The notes under the pieces are model-generated. The model was given only the letters and a program-made list of their open reading frames with translations. It had not been told where the DNA came from and made no database searches. A stretch of DNA of 43,759 nucleotides from Lactobacillales bacterium. Lineage in GTDB: Bacteria; Bacillota; Bacilli; Lactobacillales; Vagococcaceae. Location of the stretch: NCBI GenBank assembly GCA_015654945.1, contig JAATGB010000201.1, positions 1 through 43,759 of the forward strand. Direction: 5' to 3'. Positions 10,184 to 38,231 of the stretch are shown one piece after another. The translations under genes were made by a program, and so were the position numbers. How positions within the stretch are numbered: the stretch's first letter is position 1; every line of letters starts with the position of its first letter.

Positions 10184-10206
10184 ATGTTAGGAAAGAGGTG
10201 GCAATC

Positions 10207-11376
10207 ATGAAAGTGGGTATTGATAAATTATCCTTTTATGTTCCGACATTTTTTGTTAGCTTAACAGAGCTGGCAGCAAAACGGCACGTAGATCCGAATA
10301 AATATACAATTGGTATTGGACAAGAAAAAATGAGCGTTCTGCCATTATTTGAAGATATCGTCACAATGGGGGCCAACGCGGCCAATAAGATCCTAACAAA
10401 AACAGATAAAGAAACGATTGATATGGTGCTTGTCGGAACCGAATCAGGCTTGGATTTTTCAAAAGCTAGTGCGGTTTCAATTCACCAATTACTTGGAATT
10501 CAACCTTTCGCACGTTGCTTGGAGGTCAAAGAAGCCTGTTATGGTGCAACTGCGGCCCTCGCAATCGCAAAAGACTATGTTACGGCTCATCCTGAACGAA
10601 AAGTTCTGGTTATTGCTTCAGATGTTGCACGATATGGGTTGCTTTCCGCTGGCGAGCCTACACAAGGAGCAGGCGCAGTCGCAATGCTGATTAGTAGCCA
10701 GCCCAGTATCTTGTCTTTTAATGAAGATAATCTCTTCCATACAAAAGATATTATGGATTTTTGGCGCCCTTCTTACTGTGAAAATGCACTAGTCGATGGT
10801 CATTTATCGAATCAAGCCTATCTTGATTCTTTTCAAACCATTTGGTCTCACTATACTCAGAAGCAGCAAAAATCACTTGCCGACTTTGATGCCTTGTGTT
10901 TTCATATTCCCTATACCAAAATGGGAAAAAAAGCCTTAGCAACGGTACTTGATACTACCGATGAAAAGACTCAAGAAAAATTACTGCAACATTACAATCA
11001 AAGTATTCTGTATAGCAAACAAATCGGAAATATCTACACCGGTTCGCTTTACCTTGGCTTTATTTCTTTATTAGAAAATAGCTCAGACTTACAGCCGGGT
11101 GCAAACATTGGTTTATTTAGTTATGGTTCTGGTGCTGTTGCAGAATTTTTTAGCGGTACCTTAGAAAAAAATTTCCGGCAACAGTTAGCAATTGAGCAGC
11201 ACCAACAATTATTTGCTGAACGTCAAGAGCTATCCGTTGAAGAGTATGAAAAAGTCTTTTTACAAAAAATTGATCCAGAAAAAGACTGGCACGTGTCAGA
11301 TACACATGCTTCTCTACCTAAGGGGTTTTATTTGGAATCGGTTGTTCAACATGTTCGTGCTTATAAACAAGCGTAG
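10207..11376 (+). CDS. mvaS: HMG-CoA synthase
   Basis: MvaS condenses acetoacetyl-CoA with acetyl-CoA to give HMG-CoA, between the thiolase and reductase steps encoded on the other side of the divergent promoter. I chose ATG 10207 (MKVGIDKLSFYVP), with GAGGTG six bases upstream, over an in-frame GTG at 10198. With this start the catalytic Cys of EACYGATAAL is residue 111, the same number as in the E. faecalis enzyme, which supports the choice. The catalytic Glu is in ERKVLV-type context upstream of SDVARYG, and the His is in LCFHIPYTKMGKKA. The protein has 389 residues, the usual bacterial length. It is the only mevalonate gene on the plus strand here. Confidence 0.96.
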   Translation: MKVGIDKLSFYVPTFFVSLTELAAKRHVDPNKYTIGIGQEKMSVLPLFEDIVTMGANAANKILTKTDKETIDMVLVGTESGLDFSKASAVSIHQLLGIQPFARCLEVKEACYGATAALAIAKDYVTAHPERKVLVIASDVARYGLLSAGEPTQGAGAVAMLISSQPSILSFNEDNLFHTKDIMDFWRPSYCENALVDGHLSNQAYLDSFQTIWSHYTQKQQKSLADFDALCFHIPYTKMGKKALATVLDTTDEKTQEKLLQHYNQSILYSKQIGNIYTGSLYLGFISLLENSSDLQPGANIGLFSYGSGAVAEFFSGTLEKNFRQQLAIEQHQQLFAERQELSVEEYEKVFLQKIDPEKDWHVSDTHASLPKGFYLESVVQHVRAYKQA

Positions 11377-11380
11377 AAAC

Positions 11381-11400
11381 GATTTCTGCTAGCAGAAATC
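11381..11400 (+). terminator. Palindromic hairpin after mvaS
   Basis: A perfect 20-base palindrome (GATTTCTGCT / AGCAGAAATC) starts five bases after the mvaS stop codon and is followed by ATTTATAT. The T-tract is weak, so termination is probable but not certain. Confidence 0.5.
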
Positions 11401-11441
11401 ATTTATATCTCGGCAATAGCTCATTTTGATAACAAAATTAA

Positions 11442-11489
11442 AAATAAACGGGTAGCTTGCTTCTATTAGGGAGAGTTACCCGCTTATTT
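11442..11489 (-). terminator. Terminator of the glucan operon
   Basis: On the minus strand AAATAAGCGGGTA pairs with TACCCGTTTATTT around a loop of about 22 bases, followed by a T-rich TTAATTTTG. It faces the end of mvaS and closes the long leftward operon. Confidence 0.7.
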
Positions 11490-11543
11490 GATTAGCGTTT
11501 CGGCACTCATTATTATGCCCAAGGTCGCCCTTTTGAAAGCTTC

Positions 11544-12308
11544 TCAAAAAGAAATTGTCGCTTCTATTGGAAAATGATCTGATAATTGACGTTCACTTTT
11601 CTGCCAAGTAAGCGTCTGTGCTGTGCAGACGTTGAGCGTTTTCGAAATAAAAATATAATCAATTTTTATTGTTTGCTTGGCCCGAAAATAATCATGAAAT
11701 GTTGAATCACTGCCTTGATACTTGCGATAATTTTTCTTTTCAATCGATACGAAATCTTGTTCTAACTGTTTGATTGCTCGTTCAGATGGTTCTGCATTAA
11801 AGTCTCCCGTCAAAATAAGCGGTGTTGCTAATTTTTTGACGGAATGTTGAATTTGTTGTGCTGAGTAATAACGTGCAACTTCGCTGTCATTGTCAAAATG
11901 AGTATTAATAAAAGAAAAGTAGCTTCCTGTATCTTTTCGCTTAAAAATGCCCCACGTCACAATTCTCAAGTAGCTAGCATCCCATGACTTAATTGGCCGA
12001 TCTGGCATTTCTGCAAGCCATTTTGTTTCGGAATTTAGAAGTTCCAAGTCTTTTTTTTTGTAGAATATCGGATTGTATTCGCCTGATTCGGGACTATTTT
12101 CACGACTACTTCCGCAAAATTGCCATTCTGGCAAGCCGTGGACCAAGTCTTTTAATTGCAAAGGCGTCACTTCTTGAAGACCAAAGATTTGCCAATCCTT
12201 TTCTTTAATAAATTGGAGCACTGCGGCTTTACGCTGCGACCAGCGATTCGGACCATCACTCACTGTATCACACCGAATATTAAATGTTGCAATGCGTAAT
12301 TTCTGCAT
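11544..12308 (-). CDS. Endonuclease/exonuclease/phosphatase (EEP) family protein
   Basis: This 254-residue protein has the EEP (DNase I-like) fold, which cleaves phosphodiester or phosphomonoester bonds with a divalent metal. The landmarks in order are the metal-binding Asn in IATFNIRCDT, the Glu in FGLQEV (about residue 46), the TGDFNAEP motif, and C-terminal KIDYIF and SDHFPIEA with the catalytic Asp-His pair. There is no signal peptide, so it is cytoplasmic. It is the last gene of the glucan operon, 47 bases behind the esterase. Its substrate is unknown. Proteins of this type occur now and then in polysaccharide loci, and its position suggests a role with phosphorylated or substituted sugars, which is inference only. 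Confidence 0.85.
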   Translation of the reverse strand: MQKLRIATFNIRCDTVSDGPNRWSQRKAAVLQFIKEKDWQIFGLQEVTPLQLKDLVHGLPEWQFCGSSRENSPESGEYNPIFYKKKDLELLNSETKWLAEMPDRPIKSWDASYLRIVTWGIFKRKDTGSYFSFINTHFDNDSEVARYYSAQQIQHSVKKLATPLILTGDFNAEPSERAIKQLEQDFVSIEKKNYRKYQGSDSTFHDYFRAKQTIKIDYIFISKTLNVCTAQTLTWQKSERQLSDHFPIEATISF

Positions 12309-12355
12309 ATCTGTTCCTCTTTTCGTTCTGAAGCGATATCAGCTTGCTTCTCTGG

Positions 12356-13330
12356 TTACTCTTGTTGGATGATTTTTTGCAGCAGCTGCAATTTTTTGCG
12401 GCAATGAGCGTTGCCTCCGCCATCATGATAATTGTACGGATAAAAAGACAGATATTTTTCACCAGGTAACCGATTATAGAGAGCAAAAAAATTATGTGCG
12501 GGACAAATTGGATCCTTACCGCCAACAGAAGCATAGACCGGAGCTAAAATTTGTGCTGCAAAGTTTTTCAAATCGAAATAACTTTGGTTTTTGAGTATTT
12601 CGGCTTCTAAATCCGGATATTTTCGTAAAAAATGAGCAATTTCTTGATAACTTCCCGTTTCGGCAGCAATTCGGTTCTCAATATCGCAATTACTTGGCAC
12701 ATCGGCCATAACCATTGCGATTTTTTCATTACTTAAAGCCGCTGCCGCTAAAGATAAAGCCCCACCTTGGCTCGCACCACTTAAAATCAGTTTGCTTGAG
12801 TCTATTTCTGGCAATTGCTTGGCAACTTCAATGGCACGGACGCTATCGCAATAAATACGGCGCTGGTAGCCGTTCTCTTTTTGTAAAAGACCTTTCCCAA
12901 TTGGAAAATTCATTGTGGGCGCTGGATAGGGGGCTTGATCTGCTGTAGCGCCTCCTTGTCCACGAACATCAAAGACCAGTACTGCGACATCGAGCTGTGC
13001 CCACTGAAAGTATTGAAAAGGTTCACCACGATTTACCATATAGCCTAAATATTCAATCACACAAGGCATCGGATCCGTTCTTTTCGTTGGATAAATGTAC
13101 CAGCCCACAATTTTTTCCTGATATAAACTATCATAAGAGATCTCTTCAATCGTAAAATAACGTGATGGATATTCTTGTTTTTCTCTTTTGATGTTTAGCG
13201 GAATCGTCGCAAGCTCCCAAAGAGTCTGTTGCCAAAAAGCAGCAAAATCCGCTTGTTTTGTTTGCGGCGGTAAATAGGTTTGCTCTTCTTGAGGAACCCG
13301 CTCTGCAGGTAAATCTTTAAAAGTCTCCAA
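12356..13330 (-). CDS. Acetyl esterase of the CE7 (acetylxylan esterase / cephalosporin-C deacetylase) family
   Basis: CE7 enzymes are cytoplasmic alpha/beta hydrolases that remove acetyl groups from imported oligosaccharides. The family RGQGG motif is in VFDVRGQGG. The nucleophile Ser is residue 187 in SGASQGGALS, the Asp is residue 273 in GGKDPICP, and the His is residue 302 in YNYHDGGGNAH. The 324-residue length is normal. The start overlaps the end of the LacI-type regulator gene by 14 bases, which shows tight coupling in the operon. Its presence suggests that the imported glucan fragments can carry acetyl groups. Its actual ester substrate cannot be told from the sequence. Confidence 0.92.
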   Translation of the reverse strand: METFKDLPAERVPQEEQTYLPPQTKQADFAAFWQQTLWELATIPLNIKREKQEYPSRYFTIEEISYDSLYQEKIVGWYIYPTKRTDPMPCVIEYLGYMVNRGEPFQYFQWAQLDVAVLVFDVRGQGGATADQAPYPAPTMNFPIGKGLLQKENGYQRRIYCDSVRAIEVAKQLPEIDSSKLILSGASQGGALSLAAAALSNEKIAMVMADVPSNCDIENRIAAETGSYQEIAHFLRKYPDLEAEILKNQSYFDLKNFAAQILAPVYASVGGKDPICPAHNFFALYNRLPGEKYLSFYPYNYHDGGGNAHCRKKLQLLQKIIQQE

Positions 13331-14279
13331 TTGATTCCCCGCCTTTTAAATGAACGTCTATTAGTTCATCTGTTGTTGGTTCACCATTCATCATTGAAAA
13401 AAGCTTTTGCGCCGCTTTTTCTCCCCATTCGGTCTTTGAATAATCAATTGTGGCCAGTCGTGGTTTTAAATAATGACTCACTTCAATATTATCAAAGCCA
13501 ATAATCGAAATGTCTTTACCGATCTGCCAGGTTGATTTTTGAAAAACACTGTACATCCCAATAGCCATTTCGTCATTTAAACAAAAGACCCCACACATTT
13601 TTTCTTGTTTCGCTAGAATATACCGCGCAGCTGCACGACCACTTTTTTTCGAAAAATCACCCGCAATTATTTCGTATGGACTATTATTCTCAGTTAAATA
13701 ACGGATTGCCGCATGCAAACGCGCATTGCTATCATAGGTTTCGCTTGGTCCGCTAACCAAGTAAATTTTATGTGAATGGGCTTTGTTTAGTTGTGTCACT
13801 GCTTCTAGCGCTCCTTGTTGATTGTTTAAGCGTACTGAACAAATATTTTTTTGAGTTAATTCACGATCTAAGACCACCATCTGATGTCCTCGATTTGCGT
13901 ACTCGACAATGGTTTCCGTTGAAAAGGTACTATCTAAGATAATTGCGCCATCAATCATTTTTTCTGGGATAAAGACATGCGCACGCTCTCCTGAACAAAT
14001 AATGACATCATAGTGATGCTGGTGCAGAAACTCATGGATGCCACTGACAAGCTCTCCGTAAAAAGCACCGCCATAATTTGTCAAGTAGACTCCTACTAAA
14101 TTGGTTTTTTGTTTCTTCAAGATCCGCCCTGCCATATTGGGAATATAATTTAATTCCGCGGCAATTGCCAAAATTCTGTTTCTTGTCTCTGGTTTCACTT
14201 TGCTACTGCCATTCATTGCATAAGAAGCAGTAGAAATTGAGACATTTGCTCGCTTGGCAATTTCTCTAATTCCAACCAT
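13317..14279 (-). CDS. LacI-family transcriptional regulator
   Basis: The N-terminus is a LacI helix-turn-helix (GIREIAKRANVSISTASYAM, then a hinge helix around NRILAIAAELNYIP). The periplasmic-binding-protein-like sensor domain follows (about residues 60-320), containing GVFCLNDEMAIGMY and ISIIGFDNIEVSHYLKPRLATI. I set the start at ATG 14279 (MVGIREIA), which has GGGAG five bases upstream. An ATG at 14303 would add eight unusual residues. It lies inside the operon it probably controls. The likely operator is the perfect palindrome ATCGAAACGTTTCGAT at the operon promoter (24138-24153). The inducer is presumably an imported beta-glucan fragment. Confidence 0.93.
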   Translation of the reverse strand: MVGIREIAKRANVSISTASYAMNGSSKVKPETRNRILAIAAELNYIPNMAGRILKKQKTNLVGVYLTNYGGAFYGELVSGIHEFLHQHHYDVIICSGERAHVFIPEKMIDGAIILDSTFSTETIVEYANRGHQMVVLDRELTQKNICSVRLNNQQGALEAVTQLNKAHSHKIYLVSGPSETYDSNARLHAAIRYLTENNSPYEIIAGDFSKKSGRAAARYILAKQEKMCGVFCLNDEMAIGMYSVFQKSTWQIGKDISIIGFDNIEVSHYLKPRLATIDYSKTEWGEKAAQKLFSMMNGEPTTDELIDVHLKGGESIGDF

Positions 14280-14343
14280 CTTTTCTCCCACCTCTTTCCT
14301 CATTCGCTCTTCCGCTTATCTTCTACGTTTATACTAGCATCTT

Positions 14344-14946
14344 TCATGACATTTCGGCAAATGCTTTCACTATTTTCTTTAATTGCATCGACTGTAAACA
14401 AGCAACCCCACTACAGCCAAAAAGTAAAACAAAAGGAAAGAGTTGCGGCATAAAAATCGGGACAATGGCGCCAATCAACAACGCTTCACTAAACATCAGG
14501 ATTGATTCTGGTAAAAAGCGAAAGGTGCTATAAATGGAGCGACGCATAATTTGTTTTCCTGTAAGTGACTGACCACTAAAAACAAAAGGATAGATATTAA
14601 ATAGACACAACCACGCCAATACGATAAATAGCGGTAAGCTTAGTGCAACAAGATGATGCAGCGCCAAATAAACAAGAACACATAGACTGCCATTTAGCAG
14701 ACACATCGTCAAACCGACAAGTGTGCCTTTTTTCCATTGTTGCTTAAAGCAAGTTAGATAAGAGGTCACCACTGTTGCGTAGGGATCAGCTAGACTTGCC
14801 AAGCTTACTTGGTACAACGCAGTAAGCGCCGCACCAAGCGTCACAATTGGTAAACAACTAAGCAGAAAGAGACAATTCAAGAGAAAAAGATTCGCAATGC
14901 GATTCAAGGTTGTAAATAAAAAGCCATCTAACTTAAAAATACCCAT
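14344..14946 (-). CDS. YesL-like DUF624 membrane protein
   Basis: This 200-residue protein has about five hydrophobic segments and the DUF624 start pattern (FTTLNRIANLFLLN, then SCLPIVTLGAALTALY). DUF624/YesL proteins occur almost only beside oligosaccharide ABC transporters of the LplABC/YtcP type in Firmicutes, and their molecular role is not established. Here it follows the binding-protein gene by 22 bases. It could help assembly or control of the transporter, which is inference from location. Confidence 0.88.
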   Translation of the reverse strand: MGIFKLDGFLFTTLNRIANLFLLNCLFLLSCLPIVTLGAALTALYQVSLASLADPYATVVTSYLTCFKQQWKKGTLVGLTMCLLNGSLCVLVYLALHHLVALSLPLFIVLAWLCLFNIYPFVFSGQSLTGKQIMRRSIYSTFRFLPESILMFSEALLIGAIVPIFMPQLFPFVLLFGCSGVACLQSMQLKKIVKAFAEMS

Positions 14947-14968
14947 ATGCTTTCCTCTTTTCTCTGTT

Positions 14969-16618
14969 CTATTGGTCGTCTGTGCTTAAATCCAGACGTT
15001 TTTGGTTATCTTTCATTTTTTTATTTTGCTCCTTCACAATCGCTGACCAATCATTTTCTTTGCGGAACGATTGATAGTCTGCTAACGTTTGCTTAAATTC
15101 CGTATCATTTTTAGCGCGTAGCATGCTAATGAGTGAGGTTTGCCAATTTTTTTCAATTGCATCATAACTTCTTGCTTCAGAGGTTCCACTGTCTGGTTGA
15201 ATATTTTCAATGATATAATGCGGTTTTAATTTGCCTCTGCCCCATTCTTGCATCTTGGTTAAGGAGTTTTCTGGTTGAACAGCATAGGTATTGGTCCGAT
15301 CATGGGTAAAGAAAAGAATTTCACTTAACCGATATTTTTTACTATATTCGGTTGGATTTTCTGTTTGCAATTTGGTAATTGCAGGTAGCATCTCAATTTT
15401 GCCTTCCGCATTATATTGAAAAGTTTTGCCTTCTACACCGTAGCGTGTTAAGATTTGTCCTTGTTTATCCATTAAATAGGTAAACAGTTGGATCGCTTTT
15501 GCAGGATCTTTGGCATTATTTGTTACATAATTAATCATCCAGCCAGAAAGGCCCGTTTGATTCAAACCAATCGTCCGTCCCTCTGTGCTTTGGGGGCCAT
15601 CAAGTGGTACGTATGTTCCGTTGGGATTCGCATTTTTAAAGTTTTGTAAATGCGCTTGTGAGCCACTAATGCCATCAAATAAAATCGTCGCATACTTTCC
15701 TGATTCGACTTTTTCATCAAAAGTAGGACCATCATCGGCAAAACTGTCATCCGTTATATTGCCATCACGATAGACTTTATTTAAAGTTTTCACCCATGTT
15801 AAATAATCTGGATCTGTATCTCGGTCATAGAATTTTCCCTCCTTGGTTTCAAGTGGAACACCTAACCAATCTTGTAAAGGAGCGCCCAAAGAACCAGTTG
15901 TAGTGGTTACAGGGTTAAAACCAAAGGGCAAGAGATCTGGAAATTTTTGCTTGATTAATTTCATTGTTGCTTGAAAGTGTTCTGGTGTGTCAAACTTCGC
16001 ATCGTCGCCTAGTGCTTTTAAAACATCTTCCCGAATAATAAAGTTCGTATTAACTGGCATAATATTGTCCTTGTAATCTTGGGTTGTATTTGAAAAATTG
16101 GGATAACCATACGTTTTACCATCTTTTAACTGAAACCAATTCATCGTTTGTTCATTGGCAACTTTGTTAAAGTACGGATCATATTTATTTGCTAAAGTAG
16201 TTAATGGCTGCGCCCATTTATTTGCTGTTTTGGCTGCCGATGAATTAAAATCAGTCAGTGTAATAATATCCGGTAAGTCTCCCCCAGCAAACATCGTATT
16301 AAGTTTGGTGTCATCGCCTGTCACAATTTTCACATCAATATTCAAATCTTTTTTAATTTGTGCTGTAACTAAATCTTCACCAAAATTTAATTTTAACCAA
16401 TCGGCATTAATATACCACGTGAGTTTTGTGTTTTTTTTCTTGTCTAGCTTCCATGCAGGAGTCGTTTTACTTGGTGTATAGCGATCCTTAATCGAAAAGC
16501 TAGCAGCTGTTCCTTGACTATCGCTCTTACTGCTTTTCCCACACGCACTTAGGGCCACGACTGTCCCAACAATCAAAAACCCAATAATCGCTTTTCTCAT
16601 TCCTTTTGTCTTTTTCAT
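14969..16618 (-). CDS. Sugar ABC transporter solute-binding lipoprotein (probably beta-1,2-gluco-oligosaccharide)
   Basis: This extracellular family 1 solute-binding protein captures oligosaccharides at the cell surface. Its lipoprotein signal peptide ends in ALSAC, with the lipidated Cys at residue 26. At 549 residues it is of the large LplA-like size class, and typical features such as WYINADWLKLNFGED and NDTEFKQTLADY are visible. It lies downstream of the two permease genes. The Listeria innocua locus for 1,2-beta-oligoglucan phosphorylase has a binding protein specific for sophoro-oligosaccharides in the same context. I infer the same ligand here from the company of GH94 and GH3 genes. 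No ATPase gene is present, so a shared MsmK-type ATPase elsewhere is needed. Confidence 0.9.
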   Translation of the reverse strand: MKKTKGMRKAIIGFLIVGTVVALSACGKSSKSDSQGTAASFSIKDRYTPSKTTPAWKLDKKKNTKLTWYINADWLKLNFGEDLVTAQIKKDLNIDVKIVTGDDTKLNTMFAGGDLPDIITLTDFNSSAAKTANKWAQPLTTLANKYDPYFNKVANEQTMNWFQLKDGKTYGYPNFSNTTQDYKDNIMPVNTNFIIREDVLKALGDDAKFDTPEHFQATMKLIKQKFPDLLPFGFNPVTTTTGSLGAPLQDWLGVPLETKEGKFYDRDTDPDYLTWVKTLNKVYRDGNITDDSFADDGPTFDEKVESGKYATILFDGISGSQAHLQNFKNANPNGTYVPLDGPQSTEGRTIGLNQTGLSGWMINYVTNNAKDPAKAIQLFTYLMDKQGQILTRYGVEGKTFQYNAEGKIEMLPAITKLQTENPTEYSKKYRLSEILFFTHDRTNTYAVQPENSLTKMQEWGRGKLKPHYIIENIQPDSGTSEARSYDAIEKNWQTSLISMLRAKNDTEFKQTLADYQSFRKENDWSAIVKEQNKKMKDNQKRLDLSTDDQ

Positions 16619-16646
16619 TTTAGCTTTCCTTCTTTCTTCCTATCTC

Positions 16647-17537
16647 TTATTCTTTAACTGCACCAACCATCATCCCTGAAATAAAATAACGTTGTAGCAA
16701 GGGATAGATCACCAAAATCGGTACAGTTGTAACAATAATCGTTGCTAATTGGACTCCTTTGCTGCTGCTTTGAACCACTGAATTGGTCAATGCCGCATTA
16801 TCAAAACCTTTTGTCTGAGATTGCACAATAATTTCATAAATTTTCATTTGCAGCGGATACAAATTTTGATTGGTAATAAACATCTTTGCTGTCATAAAAT
16901 CATTCCACTGTGCCACACCATTAAATAAAGTAATCGTCGCAAGGGCTGGTTTAGAAAGTGGTAGAAATATTTTGGTGAAAATTGTCCAATCACTTGCACC
17001 ATCAATTTTCGCGGATTCTTCCAAAGAAGCAGGAACATCTCGGAAAAAATTCATCAGAATAATCACATCATAATAACTGAGCATGCCCGGAATGATGTAC
17101 ACCCAGAAGCTATCTAGTAAGCCAAGCGAACGAATCAATAAATAGTACGGAATCATGCCGCCACCAAAATACAAGGTGATCACACCAAATCTTGTATAAA
17201 AGCCCCGACCGACTAAATGCTTTTTACTCAAACCATAAGCGACCATGGCACAAAACAACACATGCGTGAAAGCGCCTACAACTGTTTTCGCAATTGAGAT
17301 GCCAAAGGCGCGCCAAATACTGGTATCCGCAAATACTTTTTGATAATTTTGTAAGGTGAAATCCTGTGACCAAAAAATGGAATGACCGTCTGCTAGCGCT
17401 GTACTCGACGTAAAGGAAGAAACGACCACGTTCCAGATCGGAACAATGACAATCAAAGTAAAGACAACTAACAAAGCAAGGTTCAAAAAATTGAACAGAC
17501 GATTTTCGCGGACCGTTTTACCCGTTTTCTGCTTCAT
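16647..17537 (-). CDS. Sugar ABC transporter permease (LplC/YtcP-like)
   Basis: This is the second membrane subunit of the oligosaccharide importer (296 residues, six predicted helices). The N-terminal helix follows a short basic cytoplasmic tail. The EAA loop that docks the ATPase is ESAKIDGASDWTIFTKIFLPLSKP, with core EESAKIDGAS at about residues 190-200. The C-terminus ends YFISGMMVGAVKE, which is characteristic of the LplC family. It lies 28 bases before the binding-protein gene and 14 bases after the first permease. Confidence 0.94.
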   Translation of the reverse strand: MKQKTGKTVRENRLFNFLNLALLVVFTLIVIVPIWNVVVSSFTSSTALADGHSIFWSQDFTLQNYQKVFADTSIWRAFGISIAKTVVGAFTHVLFCAMVAYGLSKKHLVGRGFYTRFGVITLYFGGGMIPYYLLIRSLGLLDSFWVYIIPGMLSYYDVIILMNFFRDVPASLEESAKIDGASDWTIFTKIFLPLSKPALATITLFNGVAQWNDFMTAKMFITNQNLYPLQMKIYEIIVQSQTKGFDNAALTNSVVQSSSKGVQLATIIVTTVPILVIYPLLQRYFISGMMVGAVKE

Positions 17538-17551
17538 GCTTTCCCTTCTTT

Positions 17552-18514
17552 CTAGAAAATAACGGATTCGCCGTCATTCATTTTTTTCGTAACTGTATTG
17601 GTAATCAGCAGCAAGACCATCGAAATAAGCGAAATTCCTAACCCCACTGCTGTCGCATAAGAAAAATCTCCTTGTGTTAATCCCATACGGTAAACATAGG
17701 AATTAATAACTTCTGATTTAGCCGAGTTTTGCGAATTCATCAGAACCAGTGTTTGATCTAAATTTGAGCCTAGCAAGTTGCTCACATTTAAAATTAAATT
17801 AAGTGAAATAATTGGTGTTAAAAACGGCAAGGTAATTTGGGTAATCTGCGTCCATTTTGTTGCCCCATCAATGCGTGCTGCTTCGTAATAAGTCGGATCA
17901 ATTTTTGCCATCGTCGCTAAATAAAGAATCGTACCCCAGCCTGCCTCTTTCCAAACATCGGAAAGAACGGCAATCAGCCAGTATTGGTTGGCCGCTAATA
18001 AATGGTTGTTTCCTTGTTTGATCAAACCAATCCCTAACAATAATTGATTAAGTAAACCACTAGTGGATAACCAAGAAATCAGCATGCCGCCAAGAATGAT
18101 CCACGACAAGAAATGGGGTAAATAAGAAATTGTTTGAACGATTTTTTTGAAGGGTCCGTCTTTTAACTCAAAAATCATAATCGCTAAAATCACAGGAATA
18201 AAGAACCCAACTGCTAATTTTAGCAAGCTAATACCTAGAGTATTGACCACCGCCTCCATAAAATAGCGATCACCGAGAATTACCTTGAAATTATCCAGGC
18301 CAACCCACGGGGCACCGGCAATTGTATCTGTGATTGTGTAGTGCTTAAAGGCAATAATGACCCCATATATGGGAATATAGGTAAAAATAAACATAAACGC
18401 AATTCCCGGTAACACCATTCCTTGTAATCGCCATTGTGCCATAAATTTTAGCGCTTTTTCCGTAAATTTTTGTTTCCACATTTTGGCGGGTCTTTTTACT
18501 CTCTCCGATTTCAT
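17552..18514 (-). CDS. Sugar ABC transporter permease (LplB-like)
   Basis: This is the first membrane subunit of the importer (320 residues). A basic N-terminal tail is followed by about six helices. The family landmarks GIAFMFIFTYIPIYGVIIAF and YLPHFLSWIILGGML are present, and the EAA loop reads YYEAARIDGATKWTQITQIT. The start ATG has AAAGGAGG nine bases upstream. It pairs with the next gene to form a heterodimeric channel. It follows the GH94 gene by 25 bases, so uptake and phosphorolysis are encoded together. Confidence 0.94.
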   Translation of the reverse strand: MKSERVKRPAKMWKQKFTEKALKFMAQWRLQGMVLPGIAFMFIFTYIPIYGVIIAFKHYTITDTIAGAPWVGLDNFKVILGDRYFMEAVVNTLGISLLKLAVGFFIPVILAIMIFELKDGPFKKIVQTISYLPHFLSWIILGGMLISWLSTSGLLNQLLLGIGLIKQGNNHLLAANQYWLIAVLSDVWKEAGWGTILYLATMAKIDPTYYEAARIDGATKWTQITQITLPFLTPIISLNLILNVSNLLGSNLDQTLVLMNSQNSAKSEVINSYVYRMGLTQGDFSYATAVGLGISLISMVLLLITNTVTKKMNDGESVIF

Positions 18515-18539
18515 ATTTTATTTCCTCCTTTATCACCAT

Positions 18540-21500
18540 CTATTTTTTGTCAGCACCGCCCTCACCAATTTGCTTTTCTTTTTCATAAACAAGAAAAATT
18601 TCCTTTTCTTTGCCAATTATTTTCTCCATTAGCGCTTTAGGTAAAATATACCCCCCACGTCGATACGGGTTTGGTTCCGTCTTAATTTTTTGCAAATCAA
18701 TGTGCGTTCCGTTGACGGTTAATTTTTCTTGCTTTCCTTGGCGAATTTCGAGCTTAAGTGGGATATCTAGATAGCTTAGCTGGCCGCCAAACATTTCAAA
18801 GCCAGTCGGAATTGTAGGATCAATCACCAAATTTTGGTTGCGAATTTTAATCCCTAAAAGATTGGTAATCAGTTGATTGAGATAAATTCCGGGACCACTT
18901 GAATACACACGCCACCCGCCCTTGACCTGTTTTTTACCTTCTTTAAGTAGGTGGAAGCCAGCTGCTGCTTCATAGCGCGTTTTAAAATCGCCGTCGGAAC
19001 TGCTGAAATAGGCATTACTTTGTCTGAGTGCTGCGTTTTTCACCACATGCTGAATCAAAATGGGATTAATCGTGCTCAAAGCTTGCCACAGATCATTTCC
19101 TCGACCCATTTTACTTAGAGATTCACTGTAACGAATATGGGCATGGACATACTGTAAACCAATTTCACGACCAAAATTAGCTGCTTGTTCTGCGCGCTTA
19201 AAATAGGTACTGATACCACCATCATAAGGAGCCGGTTTGTTCATTAGGTGAACACCATCCGGAAAGAGCAAGGTTTCTTTGATGACTTTCAGATAATCCT
19301 TGGCCTTTTGCTTTTCGCTTAATTCACTCGTAATGCTTTGAATCATCGGTAATAAGCGATAATGAATCCCGGTTTTCGTATCTGTTGGATGAATAATGTA
19401 TTCAAATTTCTGATTTTCATGTAAAACAAACCCTGGTAATACCTCTTTGTTTACCATATAGCGGTCATAGTCCCTGCGAATAGCTGCTGCTAATTCCTGC
19501 CACGCTCGACTTTCTTGTTCATATACCTCGGCAAGTGCTACTGCGAAGTTTTGAATGGCCGAATAAGTCAACGCAACTGTCCAAGTACTCGCCATATCTT
19601 TCTTCAAACGCTCATCTGCAGGCTGTAACGTATCATCCCAATCACCATCGCCATAGCAAGATAATTTGGTTCCCGCTAAAAAATGTTGTTGGATATAGGC
19701 GATTTCCCGTTTAATATGTTGGAATAAGGTTTCTTTTACTTCACTATATTGACCGGTTTGTTTCATCATGTAAGGAAGCTCTGTCTCTAAAATCGCAAAA
19801 TCATTTGTTGCCATTAAATAATCACCGATAACCTTCAGTGGCCAAACAATGATATCCCCGTGGCTTTCATTCGCCATTATTTCTTGATACTGATCAAACA
19901 TAAACCATTGCGGCCAATTGCCGTCTTCTTTAAATTGATGCGTAAATAAATGAAGTAAAATGGTACGGACAATCTCAAAATTCTGTGTCGCCATAAAAAA
20001 CTCAATTGGTCCTTGGCAAACATCGCGCGTTCCCCATGCAGCGCCACCAAACTGTTCTAACCCATGCGGTGAAAGATAATGAATGAGCATATCTAAGGTA
20101 TACCAATCGATAATCGTATTCATTCGTACCAGTTCTTCTGGTTGTGGCTCTTGGCTTGTCGTCAGTGCAAACTGATGCTGTAATGCATGAATATGTTGTT
20201 GAAAATCACGCTGTGCTTCTGCAGCTGTTTGTTGTGAGCAATGTGGAAATTCGGGTTCAAGTGTTGCTTGCGTCTTCACAGAAATCTTCTTTGCTCGTTT
20301 AAATTGTAACGTCAGTAAATTCAGCTCTGGTTCCTTCACTTCTGCTAAGGATTCAAACCAAAAATCATTTCCAATTATTTTTCCTTCTGCTCCTGACCAA
20401 TCTATTTTGTATTTTAAATCTGGACATTTTTTTTGTACGAGACTCCATTTTTCAGGAGCAAAGATCCGCTGATTTTTCTCTTTTATAGGCTGTTCTGCGG
20501 AAACATCTGTTAATAAAATCTCACTGGTAATCAGCCACTCATATTCGTTGCCCTGAAGAGACTCAATTGTCAACTCACTTTCTGGCCCATCGGTCTTCCC
20601 TTGAAGCGTCACCAGTAAATAATCTGCTTGATATTTATAGAGCCATTTTACGTTATTCAGTCCCATTTCATAGGCAGAAGGCAGACCTAAAATCGCATAA
20701 TTATCCTTCGATTCTTTGAGATAGATTCGTTGCCCGGTCGTTTTAAAAATATTTAAAGGATTCCGGACATTTGATAAGAAAGCATTCATCGAAGTATTGC
20801 CCAGTACAAGTTGTGATTGAAAGACACCATACATATAAGAAGTCACCGCCATCGTTGGTTGCAAAATATCAGTATGCTTCTCGGCTAAAATAATATGACC
20901 ATGCGAGCGTTCGGTTTTTTCTTCTTTTTCGCGTAACACCACATGCTGATTCTCTGATCCAAAAAAGGAGAGCAGCTGCCCATTTTCATCGTATTCCGGC
21001 AATTTTTTCTCCGGATAAAAAATAGCACGTTCTTTTTCGGTCAAATATTCACCATTCACTAAATTCGTTGTCGTTTTTTTTCGTTTTAGAATGGGCTGCG
21101 TTTTCCATTTTTCTGCTTGTACCTGTGCCTGAGATAAAAGCTGGTATTCGGTCGTAATTGTCGAAATGTCTTGTATTTTTTTGACCTTATCAGGGTAATT
21201 CGCTTGTGCCACTCCATAAAAAACCACTGATTGCGCTTCAGGTGTAAGCGTTAATTCATCGCTTTGTAGCGCAATATAGCCAAACTCATATTGATAAATT
21301 TCGCTTGCCAAATTGGGCTGACTTAACGCTGCTGCTTGATTTGTCCATTTATAAGAGGGACCAAAAAATTGATAGCCATCCGTTGAAAAATGAGTTGCAC
21401 CACTTAGCGTACCAATTTGCATGTACGGATTTTTTCCTTGTTGTGCTTGATTTTGCCTCGCAGTTACATGTGTCCCCGTTTTCTGGTCGGTAAAGACTTG

Positions 21501-21938
21501 ATAATCAACATATTGTGAGACATACGCCTCATTTGCTAAAAGCGTTTCTGGCAGCGCCAAACCCACATCTTGACCTAAAATGATATCAATTTTTTGCGGG
21601 ACTGTACCCGCTACACGAATAGTCCAAAACCACGTATTCGTTTTCCCTAACTGAAAAGTCACTTCGTAGCGAAACGTTTCGATTTTTCCCGACCAACGAA
21701 TCTGCTGGTCTCGAAAGCTGACTTGACTCGCCGATTGACTGCCGATAAGCGGATAACTTCGAATTTGATTTTGCTCGGTTTTAACTCGTAGATATAAATT
21801 ACTTAGTGATCCATCAAATGAATTTCCAGTCAGTTGGTTGAGCTGCATCCCGTTAACGCAGAAGCTTTCAAGTGCTCCTGTACTTAAAAAAATGGCGTCA
21901 AGTGCTTGATTTTTTATTGTTAGTTTTCCGTTTTCCAT
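18540..21938 (-). CDS. GH94 phosphorylase, probably 1,2-beta-oligoglucan (sophorose-type) phosphorylase
   Basis: GH94 enzymes cleave beta-glucosides with inorganic phosphate, giving alpha-glucose-1-phosphate. This 1132-residue protein has an N-terminal beta-sandwich region (about 1-600) and a C-terminal (alpha/alpha)6 barrel. The barrel contains GGAAWGTRDVCQGP, GNWPQWFMFD and CYGDGDWDDTL, whose second Asp of the DD pair (about residue 769) corresponds by position to the family general acid. The length exceeds cellobiose and chitobiose phosphorylases (about 800 residues) and fits the Listeria innocua Lin1839 type, which acts on sophorotriose and longer chains. A GH3 beta-glucosidase, permeases and binding protein flank that gene, as here. 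The substrate is inferred from this match in length and context. A 13-base copy of the operator core lies in its 5' coding part. Confidence 0.85.
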   Translation of the reverse strand: MENGKLTIKNQALDAIFLSTGALESFCVNGMQLNQLTGNSFDGSLSNLYLRVKTEQNQIRSYPLIGSQSASQVSFRDQQIRWSGKIETFRYEVTFQLGKTNTWFWTIRVAGTVPQKIDIILGQDVGLALPETLLANEAYVSQYVDYQVFTDQKTGTHVTARQNQAQQGKNPYMQIGTLSGATHFSTDGYQFFGPSYKWTNQAAALSQPNLASEIYQYEFGYIALQSDELTLTPEAQSVVFYGVAQANYPDKVKKIQDISTITTEYQLLSQAQVQAEKWKTQPILKRKKTTTNLVNGEYLTEKERAIFYPEKKLPEYDENGQLLSFFGSENQHVVLREKEEKTERSHGHIILAEKHTDILQPTMAVTSYMYGVFQSQLVLGNTSMNAFLSNVRNPLNIFKTTGQRIYLKESKDNYAILGLPSAYEMGLNNVKWLYKYQADYLLVTLQGKTDGPESELTIESLQGNEYEWLITSEILLTDVSAEQPIKEKNQRIFAPEKWSLVQKKCPDLKYKIDWSGAEGKIIGNDFWFESLAEVKEPELNLLTLQFKRAKKISVKTQATLEPEFPHCSQQTAAEAQRDFQQHIHALQHQFALTTSQEPQPEELVRMNTIIDWYTLDMLIHYLSPHGLEQFGGAAWGTRDVCQGPIEFFMATQNFEIVRTILLHLFTHQFKEDGNWPQWFMFDQYQEIMANESHGDIIVWPLKVIGDYLMATNDFAILETELPYMMKQTGQYSEVKETLFQHIKREIAYIQQHFLAGTKLSCYGDGDWDDTLQPADERLKKDMASTWTVALTYSAIQNFAVALAEVYEQESRAWQELAAAIRRDYDRYMVNKEVLPGFVLHENQKFEYIIHPTDTKTGIHYRLLPMIQSITSELSEKQKAKDYLKVIKETLLFPDGVHLMNKPAPYDGGISTYFKRAEQAANFGREIGLQYVHAHIRYSESLSKMGRGNDLWQALSTINPILIQHVVKNAALRQSNAYFSSSDGDFKTRYEAAAGFHLLKEGKKQVKGGWRVYSSGPGIYLNQLITNLLGIKIRNQNLVIDPTIPTGFEMFGGQLSYLDIPLKLEIRQGKQEKLTVNGTHIDLQKIKTEPNPYRRGGYILPKALMEKIIGKEKEIFLVYEKEKQIGEGGADKK
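21670..21684. promoter_or_regulatory. Second copy of the operator-like palindrome inside the GH94 gene
   Basis: CGAAACGTTTCGATT is identical over 15 bases to the sequence at the operon promoter (24139-24153). It lies about 255 bases inside the GH94 coding region, encoding IETF. LacI-type proteins often use paired operators for looping, so this may be a real auxiliary site, but a coding coincidence cannot be excluded. Confidence 0.45.
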
Positions 21939-21957
21939 AATTCACTTCCTACCTAAT

Positions 21958-24111
21958 TTAAATGGTTAGATTTACTGCAAGAACGGCTTCACTATTACCG
22001 CCTACCATGAACACAAATTCGCCTGTATCCCAACTCCTAGTGAGGTTTGTGTGGACATAAGCCAGTTCGGATAAATCAAATTCATGTTGAATCGTCTGTG
22101 CCCTTCCTTTTTCAAGAAATACACGATCAAAACCTTTCAGCTCTTGCAGCGGACGCACCACCTGTCCCATTTTGTCTCGCACGTACCACTGAACAATTTC
22201 CGTGCCTGCACGTTTCCCAGTATTTTCAACCGTAACTTTGCAAAGAATCTTATTATTTACAGTTTTTTCCACCTGTAAATCTTTATACGCAAAGGTCGTA
22301 TAGCTTAAACCATAGCCAAAAGGATACAGGGGTGTGTTTTCCACATCCAAATATTTTGAGACATATTTATTTTCAAGATTGTTGTGATCAATCGGGCGTC
22401 CTGTATTAAAATGATTGTAATATAGGGGAACTTGTCCAACATTTCGCGGAAAACTCATCGTTATTTTTCCTTGAGGCATTGCCTTTCCATAGAGAATATT
22501 CACAATTGCTTCGGCACCACCAGTTCCCGGGAACCAAGCTTCCACCAATCCTTGTACATCTCGACTGACTTCCTCCAGTGCCAAAGGACGACCGTTAAAG
22601 AGAACCAAAACAATTCGCGGATTGACCGCACGTAAGCGTGACACGAGTTCACGTTGGGCTTTGGGTAAGCGAATGTCACTGCGACTGCTTGCCTCTCCAC
22701 TCATATCCACGGTTTCTCCTGTTAAAATCACCACTTTATCCGCATGTTTTGCCAGTTCTAGTGCTTTTTCCAGCTCGGTTTCTGTTACAACAAAAGGCGA
22801 AGCAATTTCACAGATTTGCGTTTGCTCAATTGCTTGCTTTGCTTTTAAAATCTCCGCAACTGTTTTCGTTTCCTCAGGATTCCCTTTCCAGCTCCATGTG
22901 CCTAATATCTCGGAACTATTTACATGGGATCCGATGAATAGAACGTTTTCATTTTTATTTAAAGGTAAGATTTCTTCCTTATTTTCTAGTAAAACAATGG
23001 ATTCTGCTGCTGCTTTCCGTGCAATTTCCTGATGCTTCGTTGAAAAGACCACTTCTTTTTCTTTTTTTTCATCGGCAAAACGATCTGGATTTTCAAATAA
23101 ACCCAATTCATTTTTTAATGTCAAAATGCGTAGAACAGCTTCGTCTAGTAATTCTTCCGATAACATTCCTTCTTCAAGTAAGTGATTAAGCTCATTATGA
23201 TAGCAAAAGCTCATCATTTCAATATCCACACCTGCTTCCAGTGAAAGCTGCGCGACATCTCGTTCATCTGCTGCTACACCATGATGAATCACTTCTTTCA
23301 TCGCACTCCAATCCGAAATAAGTACCCCGTCAAATCCCCAATCTTTACGCAGAATTTCACGATTTAGCTGCTTGTTAACGGTTGCGGGAATACCATCCAC
23401 TGTATTAAAGGATGTCATCACCAATTTTACCCCTGCATCTAGAGCTGCTTTATACGCAGGTAAATAATTTTCATGTAGCTCTCGTTCGGACATATTAACA
23501 GTATTGTATTCACGTCCACCTTCCGGCGCGCCATAAGCGGCAAAATGTTTGACACAAGCGGCTAGCGTCCCATATTCTTGCAAAGCAGTTTTTTGCTCCC
23601 CTTGGTAACCCTCAACCATGCTTTTCGCATAAAGTGCATTTAGATAAGGATCTTCTCCGGTTGATTCCAACACTCTGCCCCAACGTGGATCTCGCACTAA
23701 GTCAACCATTGGCGAAAAGGTCACATGAATACCTGAAACCGCTGACTCTTCTGCCGCAATTCTGGCTGTTTCTTTGACCAACTCTGGCTGCCAGCTCGCT
23801 GCTAATCCTAACGGAATGGGAAAAATAGTTCGATAACCATGAATGATATCTGCCATTAATAGTAAAGGAATTTTTAAGCGACTTTTAGCCAAATATTCTC
23901 TTTGAACTTTTTTTGCTGCCGCTGCCCCGGACAAGCTCAGTACAGAACCAACCGTTACAAGATCTTCCTCCGTTAAATTATTGCCGCTGAGCGGACCTGT
24001 CGCTTCCGTTAATTCGTCACTGAAAAAATCTCCTGTTACTTGCTGCAACTGACCGAGTTTTTCGTTGCGTGTCATTTCTCGTAATAATTGCGTAAGTTGT
24101 TCCTTTTCCAT
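21958..24111 (-). CDS. GH3 beta-glucosidase (probably acting on sophorose and beta-1,2-glucans)
   Basis: GH3 enzymes release glucose from the non-reducing end of beta-glucosides with retention. The order is an N-terminal TIM barrel (FSPMVDLVRDPRWGRVLEST, KHFAAYG), the catalytic nucleophile Asp at residue 267 in GVLISDWSAM, a C-terminal alpha/beta sandwich (about 370-580, ESIVLLEN, SSRSDIRLP) and a fibronectin type III-like domain at the end (VENTGKRAGTEIVQ). The 717-residue length matches multi-domain GH3 enzymes. There is no signal peptide, so it acts inside the cell. It is the first gene of the operon, behind the promoter and operator. A Listeria innocua homologue beside the 1,2-beta-oligoglucan phosphorylase acts on sophorose, which supports the proposed role. 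Confidence 0.93.
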   Translation of the reverse strand: MEKEQLTQLLREMTRNEKLGQLQQVTGDFFSDELTEATGPLSGNNLTEEDLVTVGSVLSLSGAAAAKKVQREYLAKSRLKIPLLLMADIIHGYRTIFPIPLGLAASWQPELVKETARIAAEESAVSGIHVTFSPMVDLVRDPRWGRVLESTGEDPYLNALYAKSMVEGYQGEQKTALQEYGTLAACVKHFAAYGAPEGGREYNTVNMSERELHENYLPAYKAALDAGVKLVMTSFNTVDGIPATVNKQLNREILRKDWGFDGVLISDWSAMKEVIHHGVAADERDVAQLSLEAGVDIEMMSFCYHNELNHLLEEGMLSEELLDEAVLRILTLKNELGLFENPDRFADEKKEKEVVFSTKHQEIARKAAAESIVLLENKEEILPLNKNENVLFIGSHVNSSEILGTWSWKGNPEETKTVAEILKAKQAIEQTQICEIASPFVVTETELEKALELAKHADKVVILTGETVDMSGEASSRSDIRLPKAQRELVSRLRAVNPRIVLVLFNGRPLALEEVSRDVQGLVEAWFPGTGGAEAIVNILYGKAMPQGKITMSFPRNVGQVPLYYNHFNTGRPIDHNNLENKYVSKYLDVENTPLYPFGYGLSYTTFAYKDLQVEKTVNNKILCKVTVENTGKRAGTEIVQWYVRDKMGQVVRPLQELKGFDRVFLEKGRAQTIQHEFDLSELAYVHTNLTRSWDTGEFVFMVGGNSEAVLAVNLTI

Positions 24112-24137: not shown

Positions 24138-24192
24138 ATCGAAACGTTTCGATTAAAGTTTACCATTTCAATTTAAATTTGTAAACGTTTTC
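24138..24192 (-). promoter_or_regulatory. Promoter, LacI operator and possible cre site of the glucan operon
   Basis: On the minus strand TTTACA (24185-24180), a 17-base spacer and TAAACT (24162-24157) form the promoter. A perfect 16-base palindrome ATCGAAACGTTTCGAT (24138-24153) covers the expected transcription start, the classical place for a LacI-type repressor. TGTAAACGTTTTC (24179-24191) overlaps the -35 box and differs little from the CcpA cre consensus, so catabolite repression is likely as well. Confidence 0.75.
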
Positions 24193-24278
24193 TTCGTTTT
24201 TTATTAAATTTATTTGGTAAAAAATTCTGAAAGTTATTTCATAAAATACCTACCGCTTACGCTTAAGTAAACAAAAAA

Positions 24279-24598: not shown

Positions 24599-25555
24599 AT
24601 GAGGAAAATTAAAAAAAAATGGCTTATTTTGATGTTAGTCGTTTGCTTGATGTACATATTTTTAGGTGAAAAATTATATGCACTTACAGATGCTACAGAT
24701 GGTCAAAAAACAGCAAAAACGCAGGTACTAAAACAAACACAGGTACAAAAAAAAGCGCAGCAAAAGAAAAAACAAAAACAAATTAAAGCAAAACAAACAA
24801 AAATAGTCAATAACTTACGCACTTATCTCAACTCAGTGACTTCTGATGGCACTGTTAGTGTTAGTTTTTATAACTTAGATCCAGTTTCAGCTAGTAAAGC
24901 GGCAAAAAGTGAGGATGCACGTGTTTATCAAGCTGGCGCCTTAGCAGTTTCTGCTAACGCAGATACCGTAGAAACATCTGCTAGTACTTATAAATTGTTT
25001 ATTATCGCTTTTTTAATGAATCAAAAAAAGCAAGGAAATTTTACTTGGACAGATACAAACACCGTGGGCTTTAAAAATATGATTTTATACAGTCAAAATG
25101 AGTACGCAGAAAGCCAATTAGTCGCTTATGGTCGTGATCTAATCAATCAGTTTATTGAGGATCAAGGTTGGTATTCTCCCGTTTTTAGCGCGACAGACTA
25201 TTCAAAAACAACGGCATTAAGCTTGACGAAGCTTCTATGTGATTTAGCAGATGGAACAGGAATTTTTAGTAATGAGTCTGACCGCGAATTTATTTTAGAG
25301 CTGATGCGCACACAAGTCTATCGCGACGGGATTCCTGCTGGCGCTGCTGACGCGCTATCGGGAACGACGGTTGCTGATAAAGTTGGGTTCCTTAATGACG
25401 TGAATAATGATGCTGGGATTGTGACTCTCCCAAATGGTCAAAGGTATATTTTAGTCGTGATGACGCATGGGCATAATCAAAGCGGCTTTAGTGGTTTCCC
25501 TAAAATAGCGACAATTACCAAAAAAGTCCAACAAATTGTCTATGATGGAAAATGA
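24599..25555 (+). CDS. Membrane-anchored serine hydrolase of the class A beta-lactamase fold
   Basis: The 318-residue protein has a basic N-terminus and one membrane helix (about 8-28), then a Lys/Gln-rich segment (about 45-72) that resembles a coiled coil or wall-spanning linker. The extracellular domain carries the three active-site motifs of penicilloyl-serine proteins: SxxK as STYK (Ser129, Lys132), SxN as SQN (165-167) and a KTG variant, KVG (261-263). The omega-loop Glu needed for beta-lactamase deacylation (ExxLN) is not seen, so resistance is not implied. Such proteins are widespread in enterococci and of unknown function, perhaps acting on peptidoglycan. The start has CAGGTGG six bases upstream. 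It appears monocistronic. Confidence 0.85.
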   Translation: MRKIKKKWLILMLVVCLMYIFLGEKLYALTDATDGQKTAKTQVLKQTQVQKKAQQKKKQKQIKAKQTKIVNNLRTYLNSVTSDGTVSVSFYNLDPVSASKAAKSEDARVYQAGALAVSANADTVETSASTYKLFIIAFLMNQKKQGNFTWTDTNTVGFKNMILYSQNEYAESQLVAYGRDLINQFIEDQGWYSPVFSATDYSKTTALSLTKLLCDLADGTGIFSNESDREFILELMRTQVYRDGIPAGAADALSGTTVADKVGFLNDVNNDAGIVTLPNGQRYILVVMTHGHNQSGFSGFPKIATITKKVQQIVYDGK

Positions 25556-26651: not shown

Positions 26652-29600
26652 TTAGTCGAGTTGTTTTTTTCGTAAATGATAAATCAATCCGGATGACAAT
26701 CCAATTAACCCGATGCCCAGCAAGAACAGCCATTTACTCGTATCACGTTCATTCGTCGCCGGTAAACCGTCTTGCGTATTTCCTTGGCTTCCTCCCGAAC
26801 CAGTTTGGCTCTTATTCGAAGTAGTTGGCACTTTTCCGTTTTCAGCAATAAGTGTCACTTTATCTGGTGCCCCAATTTCGCTATCTTTGATGGTGAATTT
26901 ATATTTTTGTGGATTCAATTGATAACTTGTCGGTGCTTGCGTTTCAACAAAGTAGTAGCTGCCAGGAGCTAATTGGCTTACAGTAATTTTACCTGAACGA
27001 TTCGTCGTCAATTTTTGCTTCAACGCTTTGCCTTGGCTATTATACAACGTAAATTCCGCTCCTTGTAAAACAGTTGTTTTATCTGCTTTATCAACCTTGG
27101 TTAGTTCCACTGAGCCTTGATAATTTGCATAGTCTGCTAATTCTAAAGGTGTAACCGTCCCTGCTACAGTAGCACTAATTGTAAAGTTAATTGGTGTTGT
27201 ATTCTTGATATAACCTGTCGGTGCTTTGGTTTCAAGTAATTGATAATCGCCTGGAGCCAAATTACTCAATTTCACCGTTCCATCCTTTGCTGATATACCA
27301 GTAATTTCCTTACCATTTTTATCTTTAACCGGTGTCGTTCTCTCTTTTTCATAAAGAGTGAATTCTGCTCCTGCTAATCCCTTTCCATTACTATCTACTT
27401 TCGTAAATTGGATACTTCCTTGTTCATTGACTAGATCATCCAAAACTTTGGTTTCAGGTTCCCCTTGTGCGGCATCAATTTCAAAGGTAACGGGCTCCGT
27501 ATTTAAAATGTACCCAGTAGGCGCTTGCGTTTCAATTATTTGATAGGTTCCTTGTGCTAACCCATCATATGTCACTTTGCCATCTGAGCCAGAAGTAAGA
27601 TTTTCAACAATCGTTTCTGGTGTTGCAAAAGTGCCAGTATCATCCGCGGTTTGTACAATTTTAAATTGGGCACCTGCTAATGGATTACCGTCAGAATCTA
27701 CTTTTGAAAACTCAATTGGTGTTTTATAGTTATCAAATTCAAATGTATCTGTTACATCTGCATTCTCCGCTTCAATGACAAAATAAATTGGATTTTGATT
27801 AATTGTATAGCCATCTGGCGCTTCTGTTTCAACTAATTTATAGGTTCCCACTTCTAATTCGCCATAATTTACTTCTCCATTTGCATCACTTTCTATGTCT
27901 GATGCAACTAGCTCTTCCTCTGCCGTTCCTTCACTTATTACGCCACTTGCTTTGTACAAATCAAATGATGCGCCTGCAAGAAAGTTTCCTGTTTCTCCAT
28001 CTGCTTTTAATAAGCGTAATTTCCCTCTGAAGTTTTGGAAATCGCCTAAATCTTTTATCGGTACTTCTCCAGCACTACTTTCAGAAATAGTAAAGTTAAC
28101 TGGATAACTATTGATGATATAACTTTGTCCATTTTCTTGAAGAGGTGCTTTGGTTTCGGTCAGTGAATAGTTTCCTGGTGCTAAGTTTTCTATTTCAACC
28201 ATACCAGCACCATTGGATGTATAAATGCCTAATGCATTACCCCCATTATCATATAACGTAAATTCAGCTCCTGCCAAGCCTTCATTGGAGCTATTAACTT
28301 TATGCAGTTTGACACTTCCTTGATAGTTAATAAAATTATCCAATTGTTTGGTTGTTGGTACCCCATTTGCTGAAGCATCAATCGTGAACGGAATTGGATC
28401 AGTATTAATGATGTAACCTGTTGGTGCTTGGGTTTCTACCAAATTATAGGAACCTGGTGCTAAACCATCGACTGTTATTTCCCCATTTTCACCACTTGTA
28501 ATATCCGTTTTAACCACATTTCCTTCACTATCTTCTAATTGGAAGACTGCGCCCGCTAATCCGGTTCCCGTACTATCTGTTTTCTGTAATTCAATGCTTC
28601 CTTGATAATCAATCAAAGTTCCAGCAGCCACCGTTGCTGGCTGCGCCGCTGCTGAATTAGCAATCTCAAAGGTGATTTTTTCAGTGTTGATCAAATAACC
28701 ATCTGGCGCTTGTGTTTCAGTTACTTCGTACGATCCAGGCGCTAATCCCGTCAAGGCGACCTTGCCATTTTCATCAGAAGTTGCAGTAGTGTTGACCGTT
28801 TCATTTACCGAATTTCCTTGCGCATCCTTGACACGCTTCACTTCGAAGATTGCGCCACTCAGTGGGTTTCCGTCTGTATCTGTCTTCGTAAATTCTGCAG
28901 ATCCTAGATAATTAACATAGGGTCCAACTTCAACAGAAGGAATTTGACCATTTTCATTTTGAACAACATCAAACTCAATCGGTTCTGTATTTTGAATATA
29001 TTCAATTGGTGTTGTCGGTGCTTTGGTTTCTGTTAAACGGTAATGTCCTGGCGTTAAGCCTAGAATTGCTATTTGTCCATTACTATCTGTAATAAAGGCT
29101 TCTCCCGTACGGATAGGTGTCCATGTTTCACCCATTTCTGCTTCAAGAGAGAATTCAGCTCCTACAAGTTTAGTGCCGTCCTCACTCTCTTTAGTTAAGA
29201 CAACTTGTGTTTCGGCATCTTCCACATTTATTGGTACATCCGCAGTGGAGGTTTCGGCAGATATGGTTACCTTTCGACCTGCAACAAGATCATCTGGAAT
29301 TGTATAGCCATCTGGCGCTTTTGTTTCCTTCAACAAGTAGCTACCATAAGGAATACTGCCAAACGTAATATCCCCAGAAGCATCAATGGTTCCGCTTCTA
29401 AGAACTTGTTGATTTTTTGCATCCCACAGTTCAAAGGTTGCACCGGTTAATGCCTGTCCTGCTTCATCTGTTTTTTGTAGCGTGACTTTCCCTAATGTAC
29501 CAACAGCTGTGCCATCTCCATCAGAGGTATGAATATCGACATCCGCGCTATCTTCACCATCAATTGTCTCCACATTATCCCCTTTAATAGTCAAATCATT

Positions 29601-33945: not shown

Positions 33946-35427
<1,482 letters not shown>

Positions 35428-35437
35428 CTATTTTTCT

Positions 35438-37291: not shown

Positions 37292-37312
37292 CTCTTTCTT
37301 CCTTTCATCAAT

Positions 37313-38212: not shown

Positions 38213-38231
38213 CTTCACCTCCCCTTTCCAA

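Follow-up and report, generated by a model that had tools for sequence, protein, structure and literature searches.

A Lactobacillales operon that probably imports and dissimilates substituted β-1,2-gluco-oligosaccharides

The stretch analysed here, referred to as the window, comprises positions 1-43,759 of contig JAATGB010000201.1 from a Lactobacillales bacterium of the family Vagococcaceae (NCBI GenBank assembly GCA_015654945.1). On its minus strand, at 11544-24111, lie nine open reading frames (ORFs) built around a GH94 1,2-β-oligoglucan phosphorylase (SOGP) and a GH3 β-glucosidase (Table 1). Read from 24111 to 11544, the order from the promoter is GH3, GH94, permease 1, permease 2, a solute-binding protein (SBP) with a lipobox, a YesL membrane protein, a LacI regulator, a CE7 esterase and an EEP-family phosphoesterase, with 15-48 bp between neighbours except for one pair that overlaps by 14 bp. 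The nine genes make up a single predicted operon, in which the promoter has a LacI operator and the last gene is followed by a terminator-like hairpin. A preliminary description of the locus had joined YesL, LacI, the esterase and the EEP enzyme to the sugar genes in this way, and the arrangement stands, as the ORFs fall exactly within that interval and their families agree. The operon end that it gave is also retained, because the mvaS gene at 10198-11376 runs in the opposite direction. By eye, a signal sequence is found only in the SBP and none is evident in GH3, GH94, CE7 or EEP, so these four enzymes should be cytoplasmic.

Table 1. Genes and regulatory features of the operon, in order from the promoter side.
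Feature	Position	Strand	Basis
Catabolite-responsive element (cre)-like site	24180-24193		Consensus match, overlaps -35 box; such matches not clearly more numerous here than in shuffled sequence
Promoter-like TTTACA-17-TAAACT, extended -10	24157..24185	-	Consensus match; such matches not clearly more numerous here than in shuffled sequence
Predicted LacI operator ATCGAAACGTTTCGAT	24138..24153	.	16-bp perfect palindrome
GH3 β-glucosidase, Lin1840-like, sophorose-type	21958..24111	-	Lin1840 PDB 4zoa, E 2.7e-200
GH94 SOGP	18540..21938	-	SOGP_N 2e-86, SOGP_2nd 6.9e-66; LpSOGP PDB 5h3z 5e-227
Possible second LacI operator within the GH94 gene	21669..21682	.	Near-perfect copy; sole other genome site with <=1 mismatch
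ABC permease 1, LplB/UgpA-like	17552..18514	-	BPD_transp_1 3.6e-13
ABC permease 2	16647..17537	-	BPD_transp_1 1.7e-8
Solute-binding lipoprotein, AlgQ2/LplA type, not Lin1841	14969..16618	-	Lipobox LSAC; PDB 5gx8, 5gub, AlgQ2 matches
YesL/DUF624 membrane protein, probable transporter accessory	14344..14946	-	DUF624 1.6e-11; MusI family 67 bits, under the curated cut-off of 160
LacI-family regulator	13317..14303	-	LacI 5.8e-17, Peripla_BP_3 6e-19
CE7 acetyl-esterase-family enzyme	12356..13330	-	AXE1 5.4e-72; TTG start overlaps LacI stop
EEP-family phosphatase/phosphodiesterase	11544..12308	-	Exo_endo_phos 2.6e-16
Terminator-like hairpin with T-rich tail, 3' of EEP	11434..11490	-	Stem in the fold of 11375-11520; z=-3.5 for the whole folded stretch

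The two enzymes at the head of the operon point to its sugar. The GH94 protein contains the SOGP-specific domains PF21958 and PF21250 along with PF17167 (N-terminal β-sandwich, supersandwich and GH94 barrel), all above cut-off, and is closest in a PDB comparison to LpSOGP. The substrate residues of LpSOGP at subsites -1, +1 and +2 were taken from its published structure (PMC5309861), and the window protein is identical at all 14 that were compared, including the catalytic acid position (N138, Y141, Q621, G623, A626, R630, D631, W758, D760, R907, R916, E917, Y922 and H924; the comparison does not take in LpSOGP Y1004, S1005 and S1006). SOGP accepts only chains of three or more glucoses (PMC5309861). 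The GH3 protein is likewise identical to Lin1840 at 9/9 residues (D91, R149, K191, H192, D270, W271, E473, R572 and Y583), and thus keeps the catalytic pair D270/E473 as well as R572, W271 and Y583 of the +1 subsite, where R572 determines the sophorose preference of Lin1840 (PMC4757417). Together, GH94 and GH3 form what is, on residue conservation, a well-supported β-1,2-gluco-oligosaccharide pathway, as the preliminary description had held.

The importer is of another kind than expected from known loci of this type. Listeria innocua lin1838-lin1843 resembles the window in having SOGP (Lin1839), GH3 (Lin1840), LacI and an SBP-dependent ABC importer (PMC3960220), while the window differs by its AlgQ2/LplB-type importer and by the additional CE7, EEP and YesL genes. 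A Pfam search with the window SBP gave no match, its PDB matches are AlgQ2-type and other family-1 binding proteins, and a Lin1841-type importer was rejected, as the PDB search returned no Lin1841 match at E<=0.01. The correspondence to the L. innocua core that had been proposed thus holds for GH94 and GH3 but not for the binding protein and permeases. In the SOGP locus of Enterococcus dispar, by comparison, the SBP matches Lin1841 (5ysb) at 5e-172. Because these two binding proteins differ in type, SOGP loci split into two kinds, here called type A, with the importer type of the window (n=23), and type B, with a Lin1841-type or other importer (n=77 named loci). The window-type SBPs that adjoin SOGP form a single clade (support 99), and sister SBPs from loci lacking SOGP fall outside it; these are ~47-50% identical and neighbour GH3, LacI, GH1-like and ROK kinase genes (the GH1-like and ROK kinase labels were read from sequence starts). 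The operon has no ATPase gene. In a close relative (G028) an MsiK-type ATPase gene lies between CE7 and EEP, and the genome of the window has a gene 81% identical to it on another contig. The same genome also has a second importer of this type (L158 2247-3899, G000:C109), whose SBP is ~50% identical and which adjoins a ROK kinase gene.

The CE7 enzyme matches the TM0077-type PDB structures 1vlq/5gma at about 2e-61, has an intact catalytic triad (S187, D273, H302) and carries RGQ at 123 and GASQGG at 185, as expected of CE7. An HE motif at the catalytic histidine is also a signature of the family, albeit not an invariant one. The window protein has HD in its place; HE, HG and HD all occur within the SOGP-linked clade, and both HE and HD among ordinary CE7 enzymes. 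The Thermotoga maritima enzyme (PDB 1vlq, E 4e-61) shares family and triad with the window enzyme, which differs in its HD and in being bound to an operon. Among 396 genomes sampled at the level of the order, each of the 21 best CE7 matches (186-745 bits) has SOGP no more than 13 kb away, in 21/21 genomes, and the next match (132 bits) is unlinked to SOGP, so that the linkage is far above chance. The SOGP-linked CE7 genes group together in a single clade (SH-aLRT 88), and the gene sits within the operon in 22 of the 23 type-A loci, the exception being that of Vagococcus allomyrinae.

The EEP enzyme keeps the metal and catalytic residues of its family (N10, E46, H137, D139, D169, N171, D217 and S243-D244-H245). 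Its PDB matches include 3g6s (3.4e-50) and 4c1r (4.5e-38), the latter a mannosyl-6-phosphatase and its nearest named relative, so the window enzyme could be a sugar phosphatase acting on monoesters instead of a diesterase. The 4c1r enzyme, which acts on yeast mannan phosphate, belongs to the same family and has a sugar-phosphate substrate; the EEP of the window is linked instead to β-1,2-glucan genes. EEP is part of the operon in 19/23 type-A loci, and in five loci its gene overlaps CE7. Forty genomes of the 396 have an EEP match; it adjoins SOGP in 21 of them, and 35 possess SOGP as against 86/396 overall (Fisher odds ratio 42, p 3e-21, a statistic that ignores shared ancestry). A divergent CE1-EEP pair adjoins a Lin1841-type SOGP locus in G048 and G123, whose genus we take to be Listeria, and this EEP clusters with unlinked EEPs of its own genus (support 100/100). 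As a tree with all SOGP-linked EEPs in one clade was also rejected in an approximately unbiased (AU) test (p 1.9e-37), EEP must have joined SOGP loci at least twice. One clade of the window and G028 EEPs with those of Vagococcus and Enterococcus was rejected at p 0.0016, but no longer when four unlinked EEPs were added (p 0.06); the window/G028 gene is likely, not firmly, a further separate recruitment.

Type-B loci often have an esterase of another family. A CE1-like (PF00756) gene lies near SOGP in 34/77 type-B loci, leaving out two very weak matches (33-35 bits, L040 and L053), compared with 0/44 control loci without SOGP; this comparison is rough, since the controls are from Lactobacillales and the type-B loci mostly from Bacillales. 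An esterase and a phosphatase have thus been brought into β-1,2-glucan operons repeatedly, through different genes (CE7, CE1-like and separate EEPs). Such recruitment of two unrelated esterase families together with a phosphoester enzyme is expected if the natural substrate is substituted, and it lends support to the substituted glucan that had been suggested for the window; the periplasmic glucans of Gram-negative bacteria, also named there, are candidate sources. Known bacterial β-1,2-glucans bear succinyl, acetyl, phosphoglycerol and phosphoethanolamine groups (PMC11842490).

Other enzymes were seen among the SOGP loci as well. A Halobacillus SOGP gene run contains a PF00884 sulfatase/phosphodiesterase-type enzyme (L057 15905-17374) together with EEP, which may provide an extra means of phosphate or sulfate removal. 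GH13 (alpha-amylase family) genes occur in or beside two SOGP operons (L074 13389-15050 and L181 4832-6475) and, if they encode α-1,6-glucosidases, would suit α-1,6-cyclised β-1,2-glucans of the Xanthomonas or Ralstonia type.

Regulation ties the two kinds of locus together. The inner 14 bp of the predicted operator have no exact match elsewhere in the genome sequence, while the operator core GAAACGTTTC precedes the first gene for GH3 or transport, or falls at its start, in all 23 type-A loci. It also lies close to one of the locus genes in 65/77 type-B loci and is thus common to both transporter types; loci related to L. innocua lin1838-lin1843 share it. The possible second operator lies 258 bases past the GH94 start, with a counterpart at nearly the same position in G028, and may permit repression by looping.

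Taken together, the operon probably imports and dissimilates substituted β-1,2-gluco-oligosaccharides, with CE7 and EEP stripping decorations ahead of SOGP and GH3. In the order of steps that we infer, the AlgQ2/LplB-type importer, presumably specific for such chains and energised by an ATPase encoded elsewhere in the genome, would bring in the oligosaccharide, its substituents perhaps still attached. In the cytoplasm, CE7 would remove O-acyl groups, which could be acetyl or succinyl, and EEP a phosphate or phosphoester group. SOGP would then shorten the bare chain, releasing glucose 1-phosphate and leaving sophorose for GH3 to split into glucose. LacI is predicted to repress from the palindromic operator until an inducer derived from the glucan is present.

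Several points weigh against this proposal. CE7 and EEP are both promiscuous families. The V. allomyrinae operon combines the core with this transporter but lacks both CE7 and EEP, EEP is missing from 4/23 type-A loci, many Listeria EEP genes sit far from SOGP, and the EEP-SOGP association takes no account of shared ancestry. A secreted GH144 β-1,2-glucanase was not found in the 82%-complete genome, in a search confined to that β-1,2-glucanase family.

CE7 and EEP could instead serve as a general clean-up unrelated to glucan decorations, with CE7 deacetylating sugars acetylated as waste (LacA in the reverse sense) and EEP hydrolysing sugar phosphate that overflows from glucose 1-phosphate. CE7 enzymes do remove acetyl groups from a wide variety of small molecules, among them the cephalosporin C of PDB entry names, SOGP yields glucose 1-phosphate, and the mannosyl-6-phosphatase relationship of EEP would fit such a role. 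We nevertheless consider this unlikely, as it leaves unexplained why CE7 and CE1 occur in 0/44 control loci, among them the GH1- and GH3-bearing loci of sister SBPs, and repeatedly in SOGP loci. A substrate of plant-type acylated sophorosides or of sophorolipids, where the esterase deacylates sophorose and EEP plays an unrelated role, appears quite improbable. Sophorosides do occur naturally, and acetylated sophorose is present in sophorolipids. In the Streptomyces griseus study, sophorosides are mentioned and "(alkylated) Sopns" are raised as a speculation (PMC12369401). However, the requirement of SOGP for at least three glucoses (PMC5309861) would make it superfluous for a substrate of sophorose only, and since sophorosides lack phosphate, EEP would be left unexplained.

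Just as improbable, in our view, is that the importer takes up some other sugar, such as β-1,3- or β-1,6-gluco-oligosaccharides, with GH94 and GH3 as a single arm of a pathway for mixed β-glucans. The SOGP-free surroundings of the sister SBPs are in keeping with this, as is the cleavage of laminaribiose by Lin1840 (PMC4757417), yet the SBPs next to SOGP form a clade of their own and all checked +1 and +2 site residues of SOGP are kept.

Stripping of a decorated β-1,2-glucan thus remains our preferred account, and it has one partial precedent. S. griseus SGR_2422-2427 resembles the window in placing a β-1,2-gluco-oligosaccharide importer and a β-glucosidase beside a predicted acetyl-esterase, but has GH1 and GH193 in place of GH3 and SOGP and a Lin1841-type SBP, and EEP was not reported (PMC12369401). 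That acetyl-esterase was the sole esterase precedent in a literature search made mostly without subscription papers. The enzyme studies that we found on β-1,2-glucan use employed bare chains, whereas operons of the type described here supply candidate substituent-removing enzymes (CE7, CE1-like and EEP). More broadly, it is conceivable, though we would stop short of calling it probable, that this is a dedicated Gram-positive pathway for harvesting decorated β-1,2-glucans that other bacteria make, with acyl groups removed inside the cell by CE7 or CE1-like esterases and phosphate-linked groups by EEP, a stripping step that would have been assembled repeatedly with two unrelated transporters. 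If so, some Gram-positive bacteria feed on decorated periplasmic glucans, and the enzymes would be tools for mapping the decorations on these glucans, which are important in symbiosis and infection; according to a 2025 review, the modified positions on the linear forms have not been identified (PMC11842490).

The rest of the window upstream of the operon holds three further items. A divergent gene for a β-lactamase-family protein (PF13354) adjoins the operon promoter at 24599-25555, and 26652-32768 encodes a likely adhesin, a surface protein of 2038 aa that carries collagen-binding and SpaA-type repeat domains. A second sugar region at 33946-43415, with GH1, two phosphotransferase system (PTS) permeases and a 6-phospho-N-acetylmuramidase (MupG), suggests use of β-glucosides and N-acetylmuramic acid.

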